Origin: Nitrospinota bacterium
GTDB taxonomy: Bacteria; Nitrospinota; Nitrospinia; JACRGO01
Length of the DNA stretch: 15,905 bases
Direction of reading: 5' to 3'
Assembly: GCA_016212295.1 (NCBI GenBank)
Contig: JACRGO010000126.1
Location: forward strand, 1 to 15,905
Shown here: in pieces, positions 2,019 to 12,292 of the stretch
Layout: each line of letters starts with the position of its first letter
Numbering within the stretch: the stretch's first letter is position 1
Program-made: the position numbers and the translations under genes
The notes under the pieces: generated by a model
What the model saw: the letters and a program-made list of their open reading frames with translations, nothing else
What the model was told of the DNA's origin: nothing
The model's database searches: none

Positions 2019-3543
2019 CCACAGGCGCACCTTGATTGCTGTTTTTCTTCACCAGCACACCCACAGTGCGGTTTGATTTCACCAGATACTTCCGCGCCAC
2101 GCGCATGATGTCCTCCGGCGTCACCTTCCGGATTTCCTGGGTATGGTTCAGGAGGTATCGCCAGTCCCCTGCCACGGTTTCAAAATAAGAGAGGCGATGG
2201 GCCATCCCTGAATTTGAGCCCAACCCTCGGATGAATTCCGCTTCCATCTGGTTCACAACCTTTTGAAGCTCCTGACCTGATACAGGCTCATTTTTTAATT
2301 TTTCGATCTCTTCATAAAAGGCGTCCTCCACCTCCTTCACAGTATGCGGATACCTTGGAGTCCCTCCGAATACGAACAAATTCTCGAAGCGCGCGCCAGG
2401 GGCGTCGGAGGTGTCCGCTGAAACCGCCACCTCTTTTTCCTGGACCAGGGCCTTGAAGAGCCTGGAGGTGCGGCCAGCGGAAAGAACTCCATGTATGACG
2501 TCGAATACATAGTCGTCCTTGTGGGGCAACGTTGGTCTGTGGTATCCAATAAGGACCTGCGGCTCGGCTTCCAGTTCCACTTCCACCTTTTTCTCACCCT
2601 TTTGCTCAGGCTCCCGCGTTGAGGATGGAGGAGGAAGCTGCTGGGAAGGAATCCCGCCGAAGTAGTTCTCAATCAGCCGGAAGGTCTTTTCCGGGTCTAT
2701 GTCCCCTACCATTGCCACCACCGCGTTGTTGGGGGAGTAATATGATTTCAGGAATTTTTCCACCGCCTTCTTGGAAAGGAACCGTATGTCAGTGGCCCAT
2801 CCTATAATGGGGACCTGGTAGGGATGGGCAGTGAAGGCCGTGGCTATGAACTGCTCGTACAACTCGCCTTCCGGGGAGTTGTCCACCCTGAACCGCCTTT
2901 CCTCAAGGATCACATTCCGTTCCGCGTAAAATTCGCGCAACACGGGATTTTCCATTCTGTCCGATTCCAGATTGGCCCAGAGTTCCAGCTTATTGGACGG
3001 GAGGCTTATCATGTATACGGTATCGTCGTTGCTGGTGGCGGCGTTGAATCCCACTCCTCCTTGGTTCTGGTAATATCTGGAGTACACTTCCGACTCCACC
3101 AGGGTCTTATGTTCCTTCTGGACCTCCTGGAGCCTTGCGTTGAGTTGCGCTGTCTTTTCCTGGTCTTTTTTCGCGCCCTTCAGCTCTTCCTGGTCCAGGG
3201 CCTCTCCCAATTCCTCGATTATAGCAAGCAGCGGCTTTTCCTTTTCAAAGTCCTTTGTGCCGAGCCGCTTGGTCCCCTTGAAGAGAAGGTGTTCGAGGAA
3301 GTGCGCTATGCCGGTATTGCCCGTTACTTCGTCAACAGAGCCCACCTTGTAACGCATGAAGATGGATACCGTGGGTGAGGTGTGTCTCTCCATCACTATG
3401 ACCTTCATGCCGTTGGCCAAGGTGCGTTCCTTTACCCGCTTTTCAAGATCGAAGGAATGGGCCGGGGAAGGCCAAAGGAAAGTAATTAAGAGAAGCGGTA
3501 TCATTGCGGAATTAAAAGCGCGTGAAAGGGTATGGCTTTTCAT
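1999..3543 (-). CDS. Exported M16 family zinc metallopeptidase (M16B/insulinase-like)
   Basis: A 514-residue peptidase. Residues 1-30 are a signal peptide ending in SPAHS, so it acts in the envelope or periplasm. The inverted zinc motif HFLEH is at 81-85 (H81, E84 catalytic, H85), and the distal ligand is probably E215 in ERNVILEE. A charged insert of about 60 residues (roughly 100-160), coiled-coil-like and rich in E/K/Q, lies between them and is typical of one bacterial M16 subgroup. The C-terminal half carries the second M16 fold (VLIGYHRP, then the GRTSRLF motif). I chose the ATG at 3543 because AGGTGA lies 7 bases upstream and the signal peptide begins there. The frame is open to 3642, but those 33 codons translate a short repeat and the 3' end of another gene. 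Family members usually pair with a second, inactive M16 subunit; none is visible here. Confidence 0.94.
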   Translation of the reverse strand: MKSHTLSRAFNSAMIPLLLITFLWPSPAHSFDLEKRVKERTLANGMKVIVMERHTSPTVSIFMRYKVGSVDEVTGNTGIAHFLEHLLFKGTKRLGTKDFEKEKPLLAIIEELGEALDQEELKGAKKDQEKTAQLNARLQEVQKEHKTLVESEVYSRYYQNQGGVGFNAATSNDDTVYMISLPSNKLELWANLESDRMENPVLREFYAERNVILEERRFRVDNSPEGELYEQFIATAFTAHPYQVPIIGWATDIRFLSKKAVEKFLKSYYSPNNAVVAMVGDIDPEKTFRLIENYFGGIPSQQLPPPSSTREPEQKGEKKVEVELEAEPQVLIGYHRPTLPHKDDYVFDVIHGVLSAGRTSRLFKALVQEKEVAVSADTSDAPGARFENLFVFGGTPRYPHTVKEVEDAFYEEIEKLKNEPVSGQELQKVVNQMEAEFIRGLGSNSGMAHRLSYFETVAGDWRYLLNHTQEIRKVTPEDIMRVARKYLVKSNRTVGVLVKKNSNQGAPVEKNADL

Positions 3544-3594
3544 TTTTAGTTCACCTGAAAAAATTGTTTTGTGGCGTTTAAGCTTTTTCTCTGT

Positions 3595-6466: not shown

Positions 6467-6523
6467 ATATTATTACGTTCCGAAATTTGCGTGGAAAATG
6501 CAAATTTCGGAACGTAATAATAT
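6467..6523. repeat. Perfect 24-bp palindromic repeat element
   Basis: Two perfect 24-base arms (6467-6490 and 6500-6523) surround a 9-base loop, GTGGAAAAT. The arm core reads TTACGTTCCGAAATTTGC. It lies between the Rsm22-type gene and ccmB, where ccmA would be expected. It has no T-run, so it is not a classical terminator. A half copy matching at 24 of 25 positions occurs at 12268-12292, which shows this is a dispersed repeat. Confidence 0.9.
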
Positions 6524-6600
6524 AATGAGATTCAAACAGAATATCCCTTAAAAATCAACCCTTCTTAAAATAAACGCCGTCCATTCGCATGGAATTGCCT

Positions 6601-7797
6601 TTATTCGTCCAAGGCAAGAACCACAGAATTTTTATTCAGCCTCCTTGTTTCACCCTCTCCGCTGAAACCCTGGAGAGAGATGTTTTCACCACGCTTCAAG
6701 CTGAGAAACGCCCCATTGGATTCGCTCTCGTCCTTCCTCAAAAGCTCAAACCGGAACCTGCCATCATTTCCACAAAGAAACGCTGAAACCTTCCCCTTCT
6801 CCGCCATCAATTCGCTCACAACCACGAAGCGGTCCTCTGCTCCGGTTTTTATTATCCCATGAGCCTCCTTCGAGACAATCAAATGGGTAAATTTAAGAGA
6901 TTCCTTTCTCAGCCCCGCCAACCGGTCAATCCTTGCTATATAATCCGGCCTTTCCCAATGGATATCGTCATGGCACCAATCTTTTTCCGACCTGCCAAGG
7001 GCCGGACATTTTAAAACCGGCGGACAAGGTGAAAGAATTGAAAACCTCTTTTCCCCGGCGAAGGCGTCCCTCAGGTAAAGCAAGGTCCTGGCGTGTATCC
7101 TCTGGGCGGGCTCCAGGAAAAAGGCCAGGCCGGTTGGCGCTAACGCCTTTTGTGCGAAGCGGATTATTTTAAGGTCGCGTTCCTTTTCCGGAGGCCCCAT
7201 CTCCGCCAGCACGTTCGAGAAAAATACCGCGTCAAATTCGAGCGCCAGGCCGCTGGTCCCCTCCAATATGCCAAGTCGAAGCGTCTGGTGGTCCACCTCG
7301 AATCCAGGCGACTCCTTTTTCAGGGCGTTGGAAACGTCCTTCGCCAGTTGGGTGTTTTCTTTTAAAATTTCAGGCGAGCGGTCAACGGACACAATCCTGA
7401 GCTTGAACTTCTCTCCTCTTTTTTTCGCGTGAAGGAAAAAGGCGGCGGCTATTCCAGCCGTGCCAGGACCGCACCCCGCGTCCAGAATGGAAAATTCTTT
7501 TTTATCCAGCCACTGGCCGCCACAAAGGCCTTCAGCTTTTTCGAGGAGGTAAACGGCTTTTAAAAAATTCGGCGGGAGGTAATAAAGGGTATAAGCGTCA
7601 CGGAACTTTTTTTGTCCCATGTAATCGGATTGCGGCTCCAGGCCCTTTTTTTGGGTGAACCATCTGGAGAGGTCCGCAATGTCCTTGGATAACTCTTGAA
7701 ACCGCTTGCTGTTCCCGTTGGACGGGAAACGTTTTTTCAGAATGTCCACAAGCATGGCAGGGACAGTTGCCATCCTTGGAGACAATAACTTATGCAT
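6601..7797 (-). CDS. Rsm22-type SAM-dependent methyltransferase family protein
   Basis: About 398 residues from the ATG at 7797. A Rossmann methyltransferase core is clear: motif I ILDAGCGPGTAG (about 104-115), motif II IVSVDRSPE, then FDAVFFSNVLAEMG in the motif IV region. Downstream is a cysteine cluster, SPCPPVLKCPA then KDWCHDD, followed by RKESLKFTHLIVSK. This is the signature of the mitochondrial/bacterial Rsm22 family, in which cysteines bind a metal or Fe-S cluster. Rsm22 acts in small-subunit ribosome biogenesis; the bacterial substrate is not settled. The frame is open to 7899, overlapping the upstream small gene. I prefer 7797, 10 bases after that gene's stop, although no good Shine-Dalgarno is seen; ATGs at 7773 and 7755 are alternatives. 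Confidence 0.83.
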   Translation of the reverse strand: MHKLLSPRMATVPAMLVDILKKRFPSNGNSKRFQELSKDIADLSRWFTQKKGLEPQSDYMGQKKFRDAYTLYYLPPNFLKAVYLLEKAEGLCGGQWLDKKEFSILDAGCGPGTAGIAAAFFLHAKKRGEKFKLRIVSVDRSPEILKENTQLAKDVSNALKKESPGFEVDHQTLRLGILEGTSGLALEFDAVFFSNVLAEMGPPEKERDLKIIRFAQKALAPTGLAFFLEPAQRIHARTLLYLRDAFAGEKRFSILSPCPPVLKCPALGRSEKDWCHDDIHWERPDYIARIDRLAGLRKESLKFTHLIVSKEAHGIIKTGAEDRFVVVSELMAEKGKVSAFLCGNDGRFRFELLRKDESESNGAFLSLKRGENISLQGFSGEGETRRLNKNSVVLALDE

Positions 7798-7807
7798 GTC
7801 TACATTT

Positions 7808-8035
7808 TTATCCGCGTTTTTTTGCCGCTTTCTTCCGTTCAAGGTATTTTTGAGCCTTCTTGTAGATGTCTTCAACGGACATTCCCCTAAAAAGTTCATT
7901 CTGAATCTTCAGGTAATCCCTTTTTTCATGGGAAATTTGAGATAAAAACCTTATGGCGTCGGCCTCCCCAAGTCCATTGAATAAGGCACTCAAGCCTTTC
8001 CTTTTAATTTCAGCATCGCTTGCAATCTTCCGCAT
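7808..8035 (-). CDS. Small antitoxin-like partner of the PIN protein
   Basis: A 75-residue charged protein: SDAEIKRKGLSALFNGLGEADAIRFLSQ, then DYLKIQNELFRGMSVEDIYKK and a very basic tail (ERKKAAKKRG). The pattern 'EI..KG...L...LG..DAIRFL.Q...DY.K' is seen in small proteins encoded next to PIN-domain genes. It starts one base after the PIN gene stop, with GGAGG 9 bases before the ATG, so the two are translationally linked. An antitoxin or partner role is inferred from this pairing. Its position after the putative toxin is the reverse of the usual vapBC order. Confidence 0.6.
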   Translation of the reverse strand: MRKIASDAEIKRKGLSALFNGLGEADAIRFLSQISHEKRDYLKIQNELFRGMSVEDIYKKAQKYLERKKAAKKRG

Positions 8036-8036
8036 T

Positions 8037-8480
8037 TTATTTCACCTCCGACCTTATGAAATCCACGGGATTCACTATGTTGAAATTCCCATCCATGAAC
8101 CGCCCTTTCTTTACAAGCTTATCATCGCATGTTATAAACCAGCTTGCCTGTCCATTGTCGGCGCATGCAAGATGCATCGCATCCCTGGGTTTTATACCCT
8201 TCAACGCCATGCTTCTTGCCGTTATCAGAATATCATCAGTCAGGTCAATATGTTCAGTGGCGAGCCTTGACATCATCTCAATCTTCATTCGCACATCCTC
8301 GCAAGGGTTGAGACTGTTTTCATAGTCAAGCATGAATGACAACAGCATGGTATATTTTTTTCCCTTGATCAGCTTCAGCAACGCGTTGATAGCCATGGTT
8401 TCCATCCTGATCTTTACCTGTGACTGATCGTCAAATGGACGGTTGTAAATATTCATGTCAAGGTAAAGCACGGTTTTCAA
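8037..8480 (-). CDS. PIN-domain protein (putative ribonuclease, VapC-like)
   Basis: 147 residues. Acidic residues lie where PIN nucleases carry their metal site: D8 in LYLDMNIYNRPFDD, D52/E54 in LDYENSLNP, D100 in GIKPRDAMHLA, and D119/D120 in ITCDDKL. The opening YLD.N.YNRPFDDQSQ marks a PIN subgroup distinct from classical VapC. PIN proteins cut RNA with Mg or Mn. The start is a TTG at 8480 with AAGGAG exactly 8 bases upstream; the start sits in a hairpin (8468-8486). The next gene begins one base after its stop and is probably its partner. Cleavage target and toxicity cannot be read from sequence. Confidence 0.82.
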   Translation of the reverse strand: MKTVLYLDMNIYNRPFDDQSQVKIRMETMAINALLKLIKGKKYTMLLSFMLDYENSLNPCEDVRMKIEMMSRLATEHIDLTDDILITARSMALKGIKPRDAMHLACADNGQASWFITCDDKLVKKGRFMDGNFNIVNPVDFIRSEVK

Positions 8481-8654: not shown

Positions 8655-10775
8655 TTATTTTTTCCTCCGTCTTATTGCATACGCATCAATGTCCTTCTCG
8701 CCGGACCTCAGGAAATCGAGAAAATCCAATCCTTTGTACTTGCAAGTCTCGCAGATGCTGAGAAGAATCAAATAATCACGCAAACCGTTTCCAGATGTTA
8801 TCCCTTTGATGATGTGCCTGAGCATGGCAAATGGTTTTACCGCATGTTCGGCATTATTGTTGTTCCAAGGTATGCCGTCATATTCCAGGAAGGTAAACAG
8901 TTTGTCCCGGTTTTTTTCAAGTCGTTCCTTTATTTTGATTGCTATTTCGGTTGTAAGGCCAAAGCGAGATAGTTTTTGGTAATAACGATCCACTGATGAC
9001 AAATGTTTTTTTAAAAAGTAGTGTTTCAACCCAAAACGGTCCACCGTTTCAATAATTGGCCGCATTACATTTGTAAAGCCTTCCGCCATTCGTTTCAGCC
9101 CTTCATCATAAGGATGCTTGTACAGCGCATCATTAATATCCCTGATCAGGTGAATGAGGCACTTCTGCTGCCGGCAATTGATTCCGTCGTATGCCGCATA
9201 AAAATCAGATACCAAAACGCCCCTGAAATCCTTAAGCAACGTTTGCACATGGCCTCCCTCGCGAGTTTCGGTGCAGATATACGCAACTTCCTCCATATTT
9301 GCAAATATCCAGACAAACCAGTCGGCTCCCCGTACGCTTATCTTTGTCTCATCAGCATGGAGCAGACTCCCATTACAAAGTTTCGCCAGTATGTCATTGG
9401 ATGTTTTCTCGTATGATTTTGCCGCATTTTGCTTGATTCTGGTTGCTGTTCCTACTGTTATGTTTAGACCGAAGAGCCTGTTTAAACTTGTTTCGACAAT
9501 TTGCATTGGCAAACGCAACTCGATGCCTTGGTAGAGTGAATAAGCCATAAGATCATAACCATAATTGCTGGGCGGTAAACATTTAGCATCCGTCAAGAAG
9601 GTTTTGCCGCAATTCCTACACAAATATTGTTTATAAAGGTAGCGAACGATAAATCTCTTTATGCCATGACGCGTGAGCTTGAGATCGATCGCTGTTTTGG
9701 AGAGCTTCGCATTCGGATAAAATTTAGTTGAATGGCACTTTGGGCATGCGTTCGGACGTTGGCAATCAATAATCTTGTTTGGCGCCAGCGCTTTGCTGGG
9801 CTTTGGAGATTTAGTTAACGAGCGTTTCATGGCACGGTTTGTTTTTAGATAAACACGCTCTCTTTGATAGTCCCAGTAAGCCGCTTTGTTGATTATATCA
9901 AGTCCTGGAATAATGAAATTGTTCCTCTTGAAGCCAAACAAATGTTCTCGTTTCAGCTTGTTTATATCAACAATATCATTTTCATTCGCCACTTCTGCCC
10001 CTGGTTGACGGCATTGTAAGTTGAGCACCTTCTGGGCCACCACGTATAGCGCTTCGCAATCCTCTGCATTGTAGCAAATCAGCTTTTCTTTCTCTTGCAT
10101 GTTTCCGGAAGCTTCCCACATTTCTCGCCATACGATGGCATGTGCTCCAGAAGCCACCGGGTTTGACCACCTGAATCCATAATATCCCGCTATCTCCTTT
10201 AATCCATTCGATGGAACCGGGAAATAAACGCGACCGTAAATGAACGTAAGAAGATTTATAGGCGAAGACAGCGCATTCTTTATGGGTGAGTCTTGACTTA
10301 ATTCCCCATACCGGCCAAACATAGTCCTGATAAAAGTGGTTTCATATCTGCCATAACAGATCAGCGCCGGATTAGGTATACCACTCAGAATCCTTAAAAA
10401 TTCCTTCCAAATACTCTCCTCATCTTCCTGCTCGTCAGCCCAGGGGCTATGTTGCATGACTGAGTCGCCATTTCTGACCCGCATACCTATAAGGTAATAA
10501 AAATCACGGTCCGGCAGTCCTTCAACGTCCAGATAAACCGGTGTTCCTTCGATTTGCAGTTCGGGTCTGCCGACGATATGGATTTTTTTTTCTCGAATAG
10601 CGAACGCTTTAAGCGAATGATGATACTTCTCCCTTTTTTCTTTAAAACGCTTCGGGTGACGCCGTGGCCTGAAGGTAAAGGAAAGTTGAGTAATAGTGAA
10701 TATGCCTTTGCTGTTTAGTTTTTTTCGCTCTTTTTCCCTCATTCCGGCAAGCAGGCTGAGGTCGTCTTTTTCCAT
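8655..10775 (-). CDS. DEDD exonuclease-like domain fused to IS66-type transposase (3' part of a frameshifted gene)
   Basis: 706 residues. Residues 1-75 are the linker region of TM0106-type RecB-like nucleases. About 78-250 is an RNase H-like/DEDD exonuclease domain: D83 and E85 in YLDVEGLPD, and YNAED (235-239, YxxxD) as the last acidic motif. After a basic linker, 344-389 is a CxxC...CxxC zinc ribbon of IS66 type. About 400-690 is the DDE catalytic domain: D475 (HADET), D524 (LVSDFY) and E643 (NNNNAEHAVK), all present, and the C-terminal GLDFLDFLRSGEKD. In the other frame, 10739-11392 holds the missing N-terminal nuclease module; one extra C in the C6 tract at 10840-10845 would join both into about 912 residues. 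No IS66 tnpA/tnpB partners and no terminal inverted repeats were found, so it is unclear whether it still moves. Confidence 0.9.
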   Translation of the reverse strand: MEKDDLSLLAGMREKERKKLNSKGIFTITQLSFTFRPRRHPKRFKEKREKYHHSLKAFAIREKKIHIVGRPELQIEGTPVYLDVEGLPDRDFYYLIGMRVRNGDSVMQHSPWADEQEDEESIWKEFLRILSGIPNPALICYGRYETTFIRTMFGRYGELSQDSPIKNALSSPINLLTFIYGRVYFPVPSNGLKEIAGYYGFRWSNPVASGAHAIVWREMWEASGNMQEKEKLICYNAEDCEALYVVAQKVLNLQCRQPGAEVANENDIVDINKLKREHLFGFKRNNFIIPGLDIINKAAYWDYQRERVYLKTNRAMKRSLTKSPKPSKALAPNKIIDCQRPNACPKCHSTKFYPNAKLSKTAIDLKLTRHGIKRFIVRYLYKQYLCRNCGKTFLTDAKCLPPSNYGYDLMAYSLYQGIELRLPMQIVETSLNRLFGLNITVGTATRIKQNAAKSYEKTSNDILAKLCNGSLLHADETKISVRGADWFVWIFANMEEVAYICTETREGGHVQTLLKDFRGVLVSDFYAAYDGINCRQQKCLIHLIRDINDALYKHPYDEGLKRMAEGFTNVMRPIIETVDRFGLKHYFLKKHLSSVDRYYQKLSRFGLTTEIAIKIKERLEKNRDKLFTFLEYDGIPWNNNNAEHAVKPFAMLRHIIKGITSGNGLRDYLILLSICETCKYKGLDFLDFLRSGEKDIDAYAIRRRKK

Positions 10776-11392
10776 GGCTTTTTCACGGCACCGGCATTGA
10801 TATTCGCATTCAGAGCAATACCGGTTAATAATGAGGTCAGGGGGGAATTATTCGCCATCAGACACGCTATCTTACCAGCAATTTTCCTCACTTCACCTGT
10901 AAGCGCGCATGTCTTTACCTTCTGCGTCGAATAGCCATCTCCATGAATAATCTTTCCATGGCTGATCTCACGTTTTGTGGTTTCAGCCAGGGTTATCGCA
11001 TCAAACGCGATCATCAACTTATCTGCTTTTGTAAGTTTGCTGCTGATTATGAAGCGAATGGGAATGAATCGGACGGGCTTGCCTCGGCATTCAGATGAAA
11101 TCCGTTCTACCGCATGAAGGCAAGAGCCCAACTCCTTGCTTCTCGCAGGAAAATCAAACGCCAATTTCCAACTGGCAGCCTTTAAATTCATAGGCGAGGA
11201 TGGAGCAATAATGTATTCGACATTTTGAACTCCATCTATCAATCGTTTAATTCCACGAGTGAGATATGCGCCCTTTTTATTCCTCACCCACTCGGAATAG
11301 ATATTCCCCTTGCCGTCTTCGCCAAGAAATTGAAGCCAGCATTTGGCAGGACATTTGAGATAGGCTTCAAACATTTCCGAGGTAATAACCAT
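10739..11392 (-). CDS. RecB/Cas4-like nuclease domain (5' part of a frameshifted gene)
   Basis: 217 residues, the last 20 to 30 in the wrong frame. The start MVITSEMFEAYLKCPAKC (C14, C18) and QFLGEDGKGN, then SEWVRNKKGAYLTRGIKRL, are typical of the N-terminus of TM0106-family RecB-like nucleases (PD-(D/E)XK superfamily, related to Cas4). The core continues with LHAVERISSE, then KLTKADKLMIAFDA and ISHGKIIHGDGYSTQKVKT. After the C6 tract at 10840-10845, the -1 frame reads PPDLIINRYCSECEYQCRCREKA and runs directly into the downstream frame. That segment supplies the C-terminal cysteines (10788-10817), which with C14/C18 could bind an Fe-S cluster as in Cas4. The gene is therefore broken by one missing C, or joined by slippage. 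The ribosome binding site before 11392 is weak. Confidence 0.85.
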   Translation of the reverse strand: MVITSEMFEAYLKCPAKCWLQFLGEDGKGNIYSEWVRNKKGAYLTRGIKRLIDGVQNVEYIIAPSSPMNLKAASWKLAFDFPARSKELGSCLHAVERISSECRGKPVRFIPIRFIISSKLTKADKLMIAFDAITLAETTKREISHGKIIHGDGYSTQKVKTCALTGEVRKIAGKIACLMANNSPLTSLLTGIALNANINAGAVKKPWKKTTSACLPE

Positions 11393-11456: not shown

Positions 11457-11609
11457 AGCGCCTGAACGAAAACCCAATTCAAAGATGTTTCGAGCGAGGT
11501 TTGTAGTACCGCCTTTTGGCGGGCCTGCTGCTTTTAAAAAAAAAGACCGTCTGAAGGCGGTACTACAAACTTGGGAAAAGTGGAAAAATAGGATTTTCGT
11601 TCAGGCGCT
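11457..11609. repeat. Nested inverted repeat element, 153 bp
   Basis: Outer arms of 16 bp (11457-11472 and 11594-11609, AGCGCCTGAACGAAAA and its complement) enclose inner arms of 15 bp (11499-11513 and 11556-11570, GTTTGTAGTACCGCC and its complement). Both pairs are perfect. The centre holds a run of nine A and further small stems. It lies between the nuclease-transposase gene and the hypothetical pair. The nested layout suggests one palindromic element inserted into the loop of another. The A-run gives T on the minus strand, but not in terminator position. Confidence 0.85.
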
Positions 11610-12267: not shown

Positions 12268-12292
12268 TATTATTACGTTCAGAAATTTGCGT
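12268..12292. repeat. Half copy of the palindrome at 6467-6523
   Basis: Matches one arm and the start of the loop of the palindrome at 6468-6492 at 24 of 25 positions (A at 12281 instead of C). The second arm is missing. It lies in the 53-base gap between the two hypothetical genes, just downstream of the stop of the first. Confidence 0.85.

Follow-up and report, generated by a model that had tools for sequence, protein, structure and literature searches.

A widespread, apparently undescribed single-chain fusion of a Cas4-like module, a DEDDy exonuclease and an IS66-type transposase

The stretch of DNA analysed here (hereafter the window) comprises positions 1 to 15,905 of contig JACRGO010000126.1 from the Nitrospinota bacterium assembly GCA_016212295.1, and carries a gene in which a Cas4/TM0106-like module, a DEDDy exonuclease domain, a zinc ribbon and an IS66-type transposase follow one another (Table 1). 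In the window copy this gene is divided between two open reading frames (ORFs) that overlap on the minus strand in different frames; that of ORF2 is open upstream as far as ...PPDLIINRYCSECEYQCRCREKA, the reading passes from one frame to the other at the G6/C6 run (10840-10845), and joining them gives a protein of 911 aa. ORF2 exceeds the cut-offs of two NCBIfam models, TIGR03491 for TM0106 RecB-like nucleases (132.2 bits, cut-off 97.45) and NF033517 for IS66 transposases (195.6 bits, cut-off 180), and in Pfam it matches RNase_H_2 (76.9 bits) and DDE_Tnp_IS66 (114 bits). A first-pass annotation had proposed Cas4-like, DEDD-like and IS66 modules in one reading unit; the RNase_H_2 and DDE_Tnp_IS66 matches for which it called were obtained in ORF2, the residues that it cited there (D83/E85, YNAED, CxxC..CxxC, D475, D524 and E643) are all present, and the arrangement itself is confirmed by 76 homologues in which the modules share one chain.

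Table 1 Features of the fusion gene and its neighbours, with positions in the window
Feature	Position	Strand	Remarks
Whole fusion gene	8655..11392	-	911 aa with frames joined; split by frameshift in the window copy
ORF1, 217 aa	10739..11392	-	N-terminal Cas4/TM0106-like module, catalytic PD-(D/E)XK residues absent; Cas4 fold in homologue model
ORF2, 706 aa	8655..10775	-	End of TM0106 module, DEDDy exonuclease, zinc ribbon, IS66-type DDE transposase
C6 run (G6 on + strand)	10840..10845	-	Junction of the two reading frames; frameshift or sequencing error
DEDDy 3'-5' exonuclease domain (RNase_H_2)	10029..10538	-	D288, E290, E350, Y440, D444 of joined protein; PF13482, 76.9 bits
Zinc ribbon CxxC...CxxC	9609..9746	-	C549, C552, C591, C594; 100% conserved
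IS66-type DDE transposase domain	8784..9566	-	D680, D729, E848 (codons near 9352, 9205, 8848); PF03050, 114 bits
PIN-domain protein, neighbour	8037..8480	-	Probable toxin of a toxin-antitoxin pair; PF01850, E 7e-5
75-aa ORF, neighbour of PIN gene	7808..8035	-	Possible partner; pairing inferred from position only

Two short peptide patterns, run against 84,980 species genomes, returned 200 relatives, a count that is a lower bound, and the best 80 of these, a sample biased toward the window gene's subfamily, were fetched. In 76 of them one uninterrupted frame, about 850-1,090 aa long although contig ends truncate a few, aligns along the chain with the same order of modules, and none of these 76 full-length frames is shifted at the C6 site. 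A genome of the same genus encodes an intact homologue of 925 aa with 41% identity to the window protein. The window copy is a frameshifted or mis-sequenced member of a genuine fusion family. Hosts are distributed over Nitrospinota, Nitrospirota, Planctomycetota, Verrucomicrobiota, Acidobacteriota, Cyanobacteriota, Bacteroidota, Pseudomonadota, KSB1 and Hydrogenedentota, together with one Thermoplasmatota metagenome-assembled genome (MAG), and most host genomes are MAGs. Two cyanobacterial plasmids also carry the gene, annotated as 'TM0106 family RecB-like putative nuclease' or 'transposase IS66, putative'. No relative was found among viral contigs, and phages gave only a weak match, to the IS66 part. 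The window's own genome holds one copy, and dN/dS across eight homologue pairs lies between 0.08 and 0.36. Across the genomes compared, the fusion behaves as an accessory gene that is under purifying selection, spreads horizontally and is mostly present once per genome. The earlier impression that similar fusions exist elsewhere proved right, with the same module order across many phyla, and so far did its remark that their function is not described, given that no publication on this domain combination was found in the open-licence literature searched; the family is widespread and apparently undescribed.

The modules of the chain differ in the state of their active sites. An AlphaFold2 model of one homologue (L026), built with 70 relatives (pLDDT 89.9), was compared with known folds by VIA-align and Foldseek. 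Residues 1-211 resemble Cas4 of the Cas4/Cas1/Cas2 complex 7mi4 (Z 18.6, 2.9 Å over 188 residues), and a profile match to 8d3l (E 1e-6) likewise indicates a Cas4 fold; residues 284-460 resemble the exonuclease domain of the PolB-type E. coli DNA polymerase II (Z 15.1), and residues 532-890 the ISCth4 transposase (Z 15.0). The four-cysteine cluster, of putative Fe-S type, is kept at C14 in 93% and at C192, C195 and C201 in 100% of 77 sequences, and the cysteines of the Cas4-like module in 72-76 of the 76 fusions. In the related TM0106 proteins of about 1,100 aa the PD-(D/E)XK site is visible as H, D and D-T-K, whereas among the fusions the H is found in 2/76, the D in 28/76 and [DE]xK in 1/76, and the D of the 'VDLF' motif is replaced by N in 76/76. 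The Cas4-like module consequently looks like a dead, structurally kept domain, and the idea that it serves as a working end-processing nuclease is not upheld. By contrast, the DEDDy site (D, E, E/D, Y, D) is complete in 76/76, and the DDE triad D680, D729, E848 and the zinc-ribbon cysteines are invariant in 77 sequences; judged by these residues, the exonuclease and transposase parts look active.

The fusion shares with the TM0106/COG2251 family (TIGR03491) a Cas4-like module with its cysteine cluster followed by an RNase_H_2 (DEDD) domain, and departs from it in the lost PD-(D/E)XK residues, the N in place of the 'VDLF' D, and an IS66 C-terminus where the 1,100-aa relatives have a longer C-terminal part of their own. 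COG2251 is known to combine DUF83 (Cas4-like) with PF13482, often plus AAA domains (PMC3985635). Both a Cas4/RecB-like and an RNase H-like domain are present, as first suggested, yet the latter belongs to TM0106/COG2251 itself and implies no extra acquisition.

Comparison of homologues shows that the N-terminal and C-terminal halves of the gene are exchanged by recombination. In the pair L018/L073 the N halves share 93% of their residues, the DDE regions 63% and the middles 32%, with dS of 0.18 vs 2.08; in L007/L015, both of which have the same comM neighbour (about 75% identical at the nucleotide level), the N halves are about 90% and the C halves 46-71% identical, while the adjoining HigBA is 83-93% identical. 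The reverse is seen in L066/L069, where the C half is nearly identical and the N half more diverged. Trees of the two halves have 18 strong splits in common, and 14 of the 39 strong N-half splits are contradicted by strong C-half splits; the recombination breakpoints map inside the DEDDy domain, at about residues 355 and 420. Most mosaic pairs come from MAG contigs, some of which may be assembly chimeras, although the occurrence of mosaics in separate data sets, with shared halves that are not identical, argues against this.

A second pattern concerns the boundaries of the gene, which is often cargo between recombination sites of other systems (attC, or the 3' ends of tRNA genes or comM). Direct repeats flank it at 13 of 74 loci, against 0.25 expected from mismatched upstream/downstream pairs; about 10 of the 13 are informative, the repeat of the window being one with 188 sites, that of L052 a hairpin of the repetitive extragenic palindromic (REP) type, and that of L036 weak. 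At L057 the gene lies between integron attC sites, with GTTAGGC just before it (3562) and GCCTAACAAGCGCC...GTTAGGC (GCCTAAC...GTTAGGC) just after it; by eye, L060 has similar boundaries and L066 an attC. No such boundary was seen in the window. Elsewhere the repeated boundary is an exact 30 bp of the tRNA-Gly 3' end (L026), a 3' end of tRNA-Asn (L030), of tRNA-Glu (L011 and L051) or of a tRNA gene at L040, or 153 bp of the comM 3' end at 80% (L007); L044 and L059 have direct repeats of no assigned site type. The units thus bounded span 2.8-5.4 kb and hold the fusion with AbiEi/AbiEii (L026), with HigBA (L007) or with UPF0175/DUF3368 (L040, with a tyrosine integrase just outside), or the fusion alone (L051). 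Two Bacteroidota sets share a block of fusion and AbiE pair within unrelated flanks, and L011 and L051, with different C halves, occupy the same tRNA-Glu site. The L011 contig, a 3.5-kb MAG fragment, begins and ends (1-44 and 3506-3549) with the same 44 bp of the tRNA-Glu 3' region, and has a lone fusion gene between them; such a contig would result from excision as a circle, from tandem duplication or from an assembly that broke at the repeat.

These units resemble integron cassettes and the integrase-less att-bounded units (cis-mobilisable elements, CIMEs) known at tRNA genes (PMC5704250), in that they are bounded by attC (L057/L060) or by duplicated tRNA or gene 3' ends and contain no internal integrase; the likeness accounts for the travel of the gene and not for the action of its protein. 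Integrons as a general carrier were considered and rejected, the attC scans giving 5 matches vs 1.3 in shuffled sequence and 4 vs 1.5 in mismatched pairs; on this basis, attC is claimed only for L057, L060 and L066, and regarded as likely for L062, L078 and L084. Integron integrases above cut-off occur in 11 of about 47 host genomes, the window's own included, vs 0/14 controls, a result not used as proof because the arrays beside the integrases are unconvincing. Three such genes, above the TIGR02249 cut-off, lie on contigs 146, 3 and 182 of the window's genome (L085, L086, L087), and two more in the same-genus genome, without a clear or convincing attC array beside any of them.

Several other repeats were noted near the gene. 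The 22-bp motif CAAATTTCNGAACGTAATAATA occurs in the window at 6468-6489, 6501-6522 and 12268-12289, and the direct repeat that it forms around the gene was rejected as an att site, since it is found genome-wide: with as many as 3 mismatches allowed, the window's genome has 188 matches, often arranged as inverted pairs with a spacing of about 129 bp, and the motif is an abundant palindromic repeat resembling a miniature inverted-repeat transposable element. Upstream of the gene, nested palindromes cover 153 bp (11457-11609), with diverged copies in the same genome (contig 146) and several in the same-genus genome; their low copy number led us to reject a REP-like link to the gene. At L031 (2465-3230) and L052 (3164 and 6476-7204), copies of a Verrucomicrobial hairpin, GTAGCAGCCGACGTNAGGAGGCTC, lie on either side of a small ORF that adjoins the fusion gene. 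By eye this ORF resembles a REP-associated transposase, and the hairpins were likewise discarded as a link to the fusion, being present in only two tested genomes and apparently tied to the small ORF. At L084 a 74-bp tandem repeat (131-350) lies upstream of the fusion gene, with copies of TCGTTAAGCAGAAA at 131, 205 and 279.

Around the gene, the neighbours that recur are mainly toxin-antitoxin families. Among 143 ORFs within about 1.1 kb downstream these are AbiEii, DUF6088, AbiEi_4, Gp49/HigB, DUF5615, UPF0175, PIN and Abi_2; among 113 upstream ORFs only PIN families recur, and in the distal set of 148 ORFs ParE alone does so, RelE and a nucleotidyltransferase partner being listed once each. 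The ORFs were called by a greedy finder, and the counts are tallies rather than a statistical test. In the window the PIN gene lies 175 bp downstream of the fusion gene, and a homologue of its product (35% identity) adjoins the fusion gene in L043; the 75-aa ORF next to it matched no family in Pfam or NCBIfam. Toxin-antitoxin genes are common integron cassettes, so the association may reflect shared transport and not shared function. Recurring CRISPR-like repeat arrays beside the fusion gene were not found, and no cas gene is among the recurring neighbour families listed, although no search was aimed at CRISPR arrays as such. Two TM0106 nuclease genes of the ~1,100-aa kind on plasmids (L113, L115) adjoin WYL-domain regulators and other defence-like genes.

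The reading that we prefer, at a probability of roughly 0.45, is that the gene encodes a single-chain enzyme that would trim and join DNA, an accessory function carried as cargo and probably directed at mobile DNA; it draws on conserved residues and the structural model. Under this scheme the dead Cas4-like module would hold on to a single strand or to the end of a DNA molecule, the DEDDy domain would trim the 3' end, the zinc ribbon with the surrounding middle region would select the DNA, and the DDE domain would cut or join it. Selection may then favour action on other mobile or incoming DNA and not self-movement, although we are less sure of this step. The likeliest description is of an accessory enzyme that integrons and islands carry and whose substrate would be mobile or incoming DNA. 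The suggestion of a domesticated DNA-processing enzyme fits better than that of an insertion sequence (IS), with the qualification that the gene travels horizontally, as cargo. The nearest functional analogy, though not a membership, is the Cas1-Cas2/DEDDh trimmer-integrase: as in CRISPR adaptation (Cas4-Cas1 included), a Cas4 fold, a DEDD trimmer and an integrating enzyme would work together, whereas in the fusion the putative integrase is of the DDE/IS66 type and not Cas1, the Cas4 part is apparently dead, and the exonuclease is DEDDy and not DEDDh.

Several points weigh against this reading. Most loci have no visible att site, and many of the contigs are short pieces of MAGs; genuine transposition from cryptic ends would explain the intact DDE triad equally well; the defence-like side of the role rests on the neighbours, the recombination pattern and the context of helicase-bearing TM0106 relatives; and a PADLOC scan around the gene yielded no defence-island signature and little besides AbiE.

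A more specific proposal, which we consider unlikely, is that the protein is a defence effector, a domesticated transposase whose variable C-terminal half would recognise foreign mobile DNA, which the protein would then degrade or trap. The cargo position, the toxin-antitoxin and AbiE neighbours in three phyla, the alteration of the C half by recombination at a conserved locus (L007/L015) and the WYL regulators beside helicase-bearing TM0106 proteins are all consistent with such a role. However, no defence neighbours other than toxin-antitoxin pairs are consistent, and the changes in the C half may be neutral gene conversion, given that swaps also run in the reverse direction (L066/L069).

Rather improbable is an autonomous IS66-like IS, whose transposase with added domains would move itself by cut-and-paste between ends too short or diverse to be seen. 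The intact DDE triad and zinc ribbon, the patchy distribution over phyla and the many copies on contigs that end close to the gene would suit such an element, as would the inverted repeats around the gene at 6 of 74 loci; these, however, differ from locus to locus, and those of L052 are the multi-copy REP-like hairpin. An IS66 element is expected to have terminal inverted repeats and to duplicate 8 bp of its target. Neither a search for terminal inverted repeats within 500 bp of the gene nor a wider one with mismatched-locus controls detected a common end. One copy is present in 27 of 44 host genomes, and the intragenome copies compared are divergent (MAG assemblies may collapse identical repeats); near-identical DNA of the gene is absent from 290 other Nostocales. 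In Paraburkholderia only 2 of 117 genomes have the gene, and in one of the two an IS interrupts it, whereas many of the 117 contain the IS-like repeats of the 10.7-kb locus in which the gene lies. With the IS66 transposase TnpC (NF033517, PF03050) the fusion has in common the transposase domain, zinc ribbon and DDE triad, and it differs in its extra N-terminal 450 aa and its mostly single copies; no common terminal repeats were found, and no IS66 TnpB family recurs among the top 25 families of the neighbour tallies. Some IS66 members do lack companion tnpA/tnpB genes. Exchange of the DNA-binding half without visible ends is also hard to reconcile with self-mobility, and the view of the unit as an IS66-type element with its own ends is not supported.

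We are equally sceptical that small (3-5 kb) elements at tRNA and protein-gene 3' ends have the fusion protein as their own integrase and the toxin-antitoxin pairs as passengers, even though no integrase was recognised in the units L026, L007 (comM) and L051 (tRNA-Glu), each of which has duplicated target-gene ends. Target-gene duplications of this length are not known from DDE enzymes; moreover, L057 and L060 are integron-type cassettes, moved by IntI, the L040 unit has a tyrosine integrase immediately outside it, and L011 and L051 use the same tRNA-Glu site despite their different C halves. A DEDD exonuclease and an integrase do form a known working pair in CRISPR adaptation (PMC10284694), yet integrase-less CIMEs are also known (PMC5704250). 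Marginally more doubtful still is the full scheme of a single-chain trimmer-integrase, in which the dead Cas4 part would capture ends, the DEDDy domain trim them and the IS66 domain insert them, building those units where the fusion is the sole recombinase-like gene. An unusual insertion chemistry, as first envisaged, may exist; no result here points to it.

The remaining alternative, a local accident in which an IS66 copy landed in a nuclease gene of the window genome, draws on the frameshift of the window copy and is refuted by the 76 homologues, spread over many phyla, that have these modules in the same order within a single chain.

The Cas4 fold, DEDD trimming and DDE joining are activities that CRISPR adaptation and transposition take from separate proteins, and here they are predicted within one conserved chain, in at least 200 relatives that databases label either 'RecB-like nuclease' or 'IS66 transposase'. 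If this chain does trim and join DNA, it would offer a one-protein system for the coordination of end trimming with strand transfer; if it is instead a defence or maintenance enzyme, it would represent an IS66 transposase that integrons and islands have taken up as cargo. In both cases, many genes now counted as IS66 or as nucleases require re-annotation.

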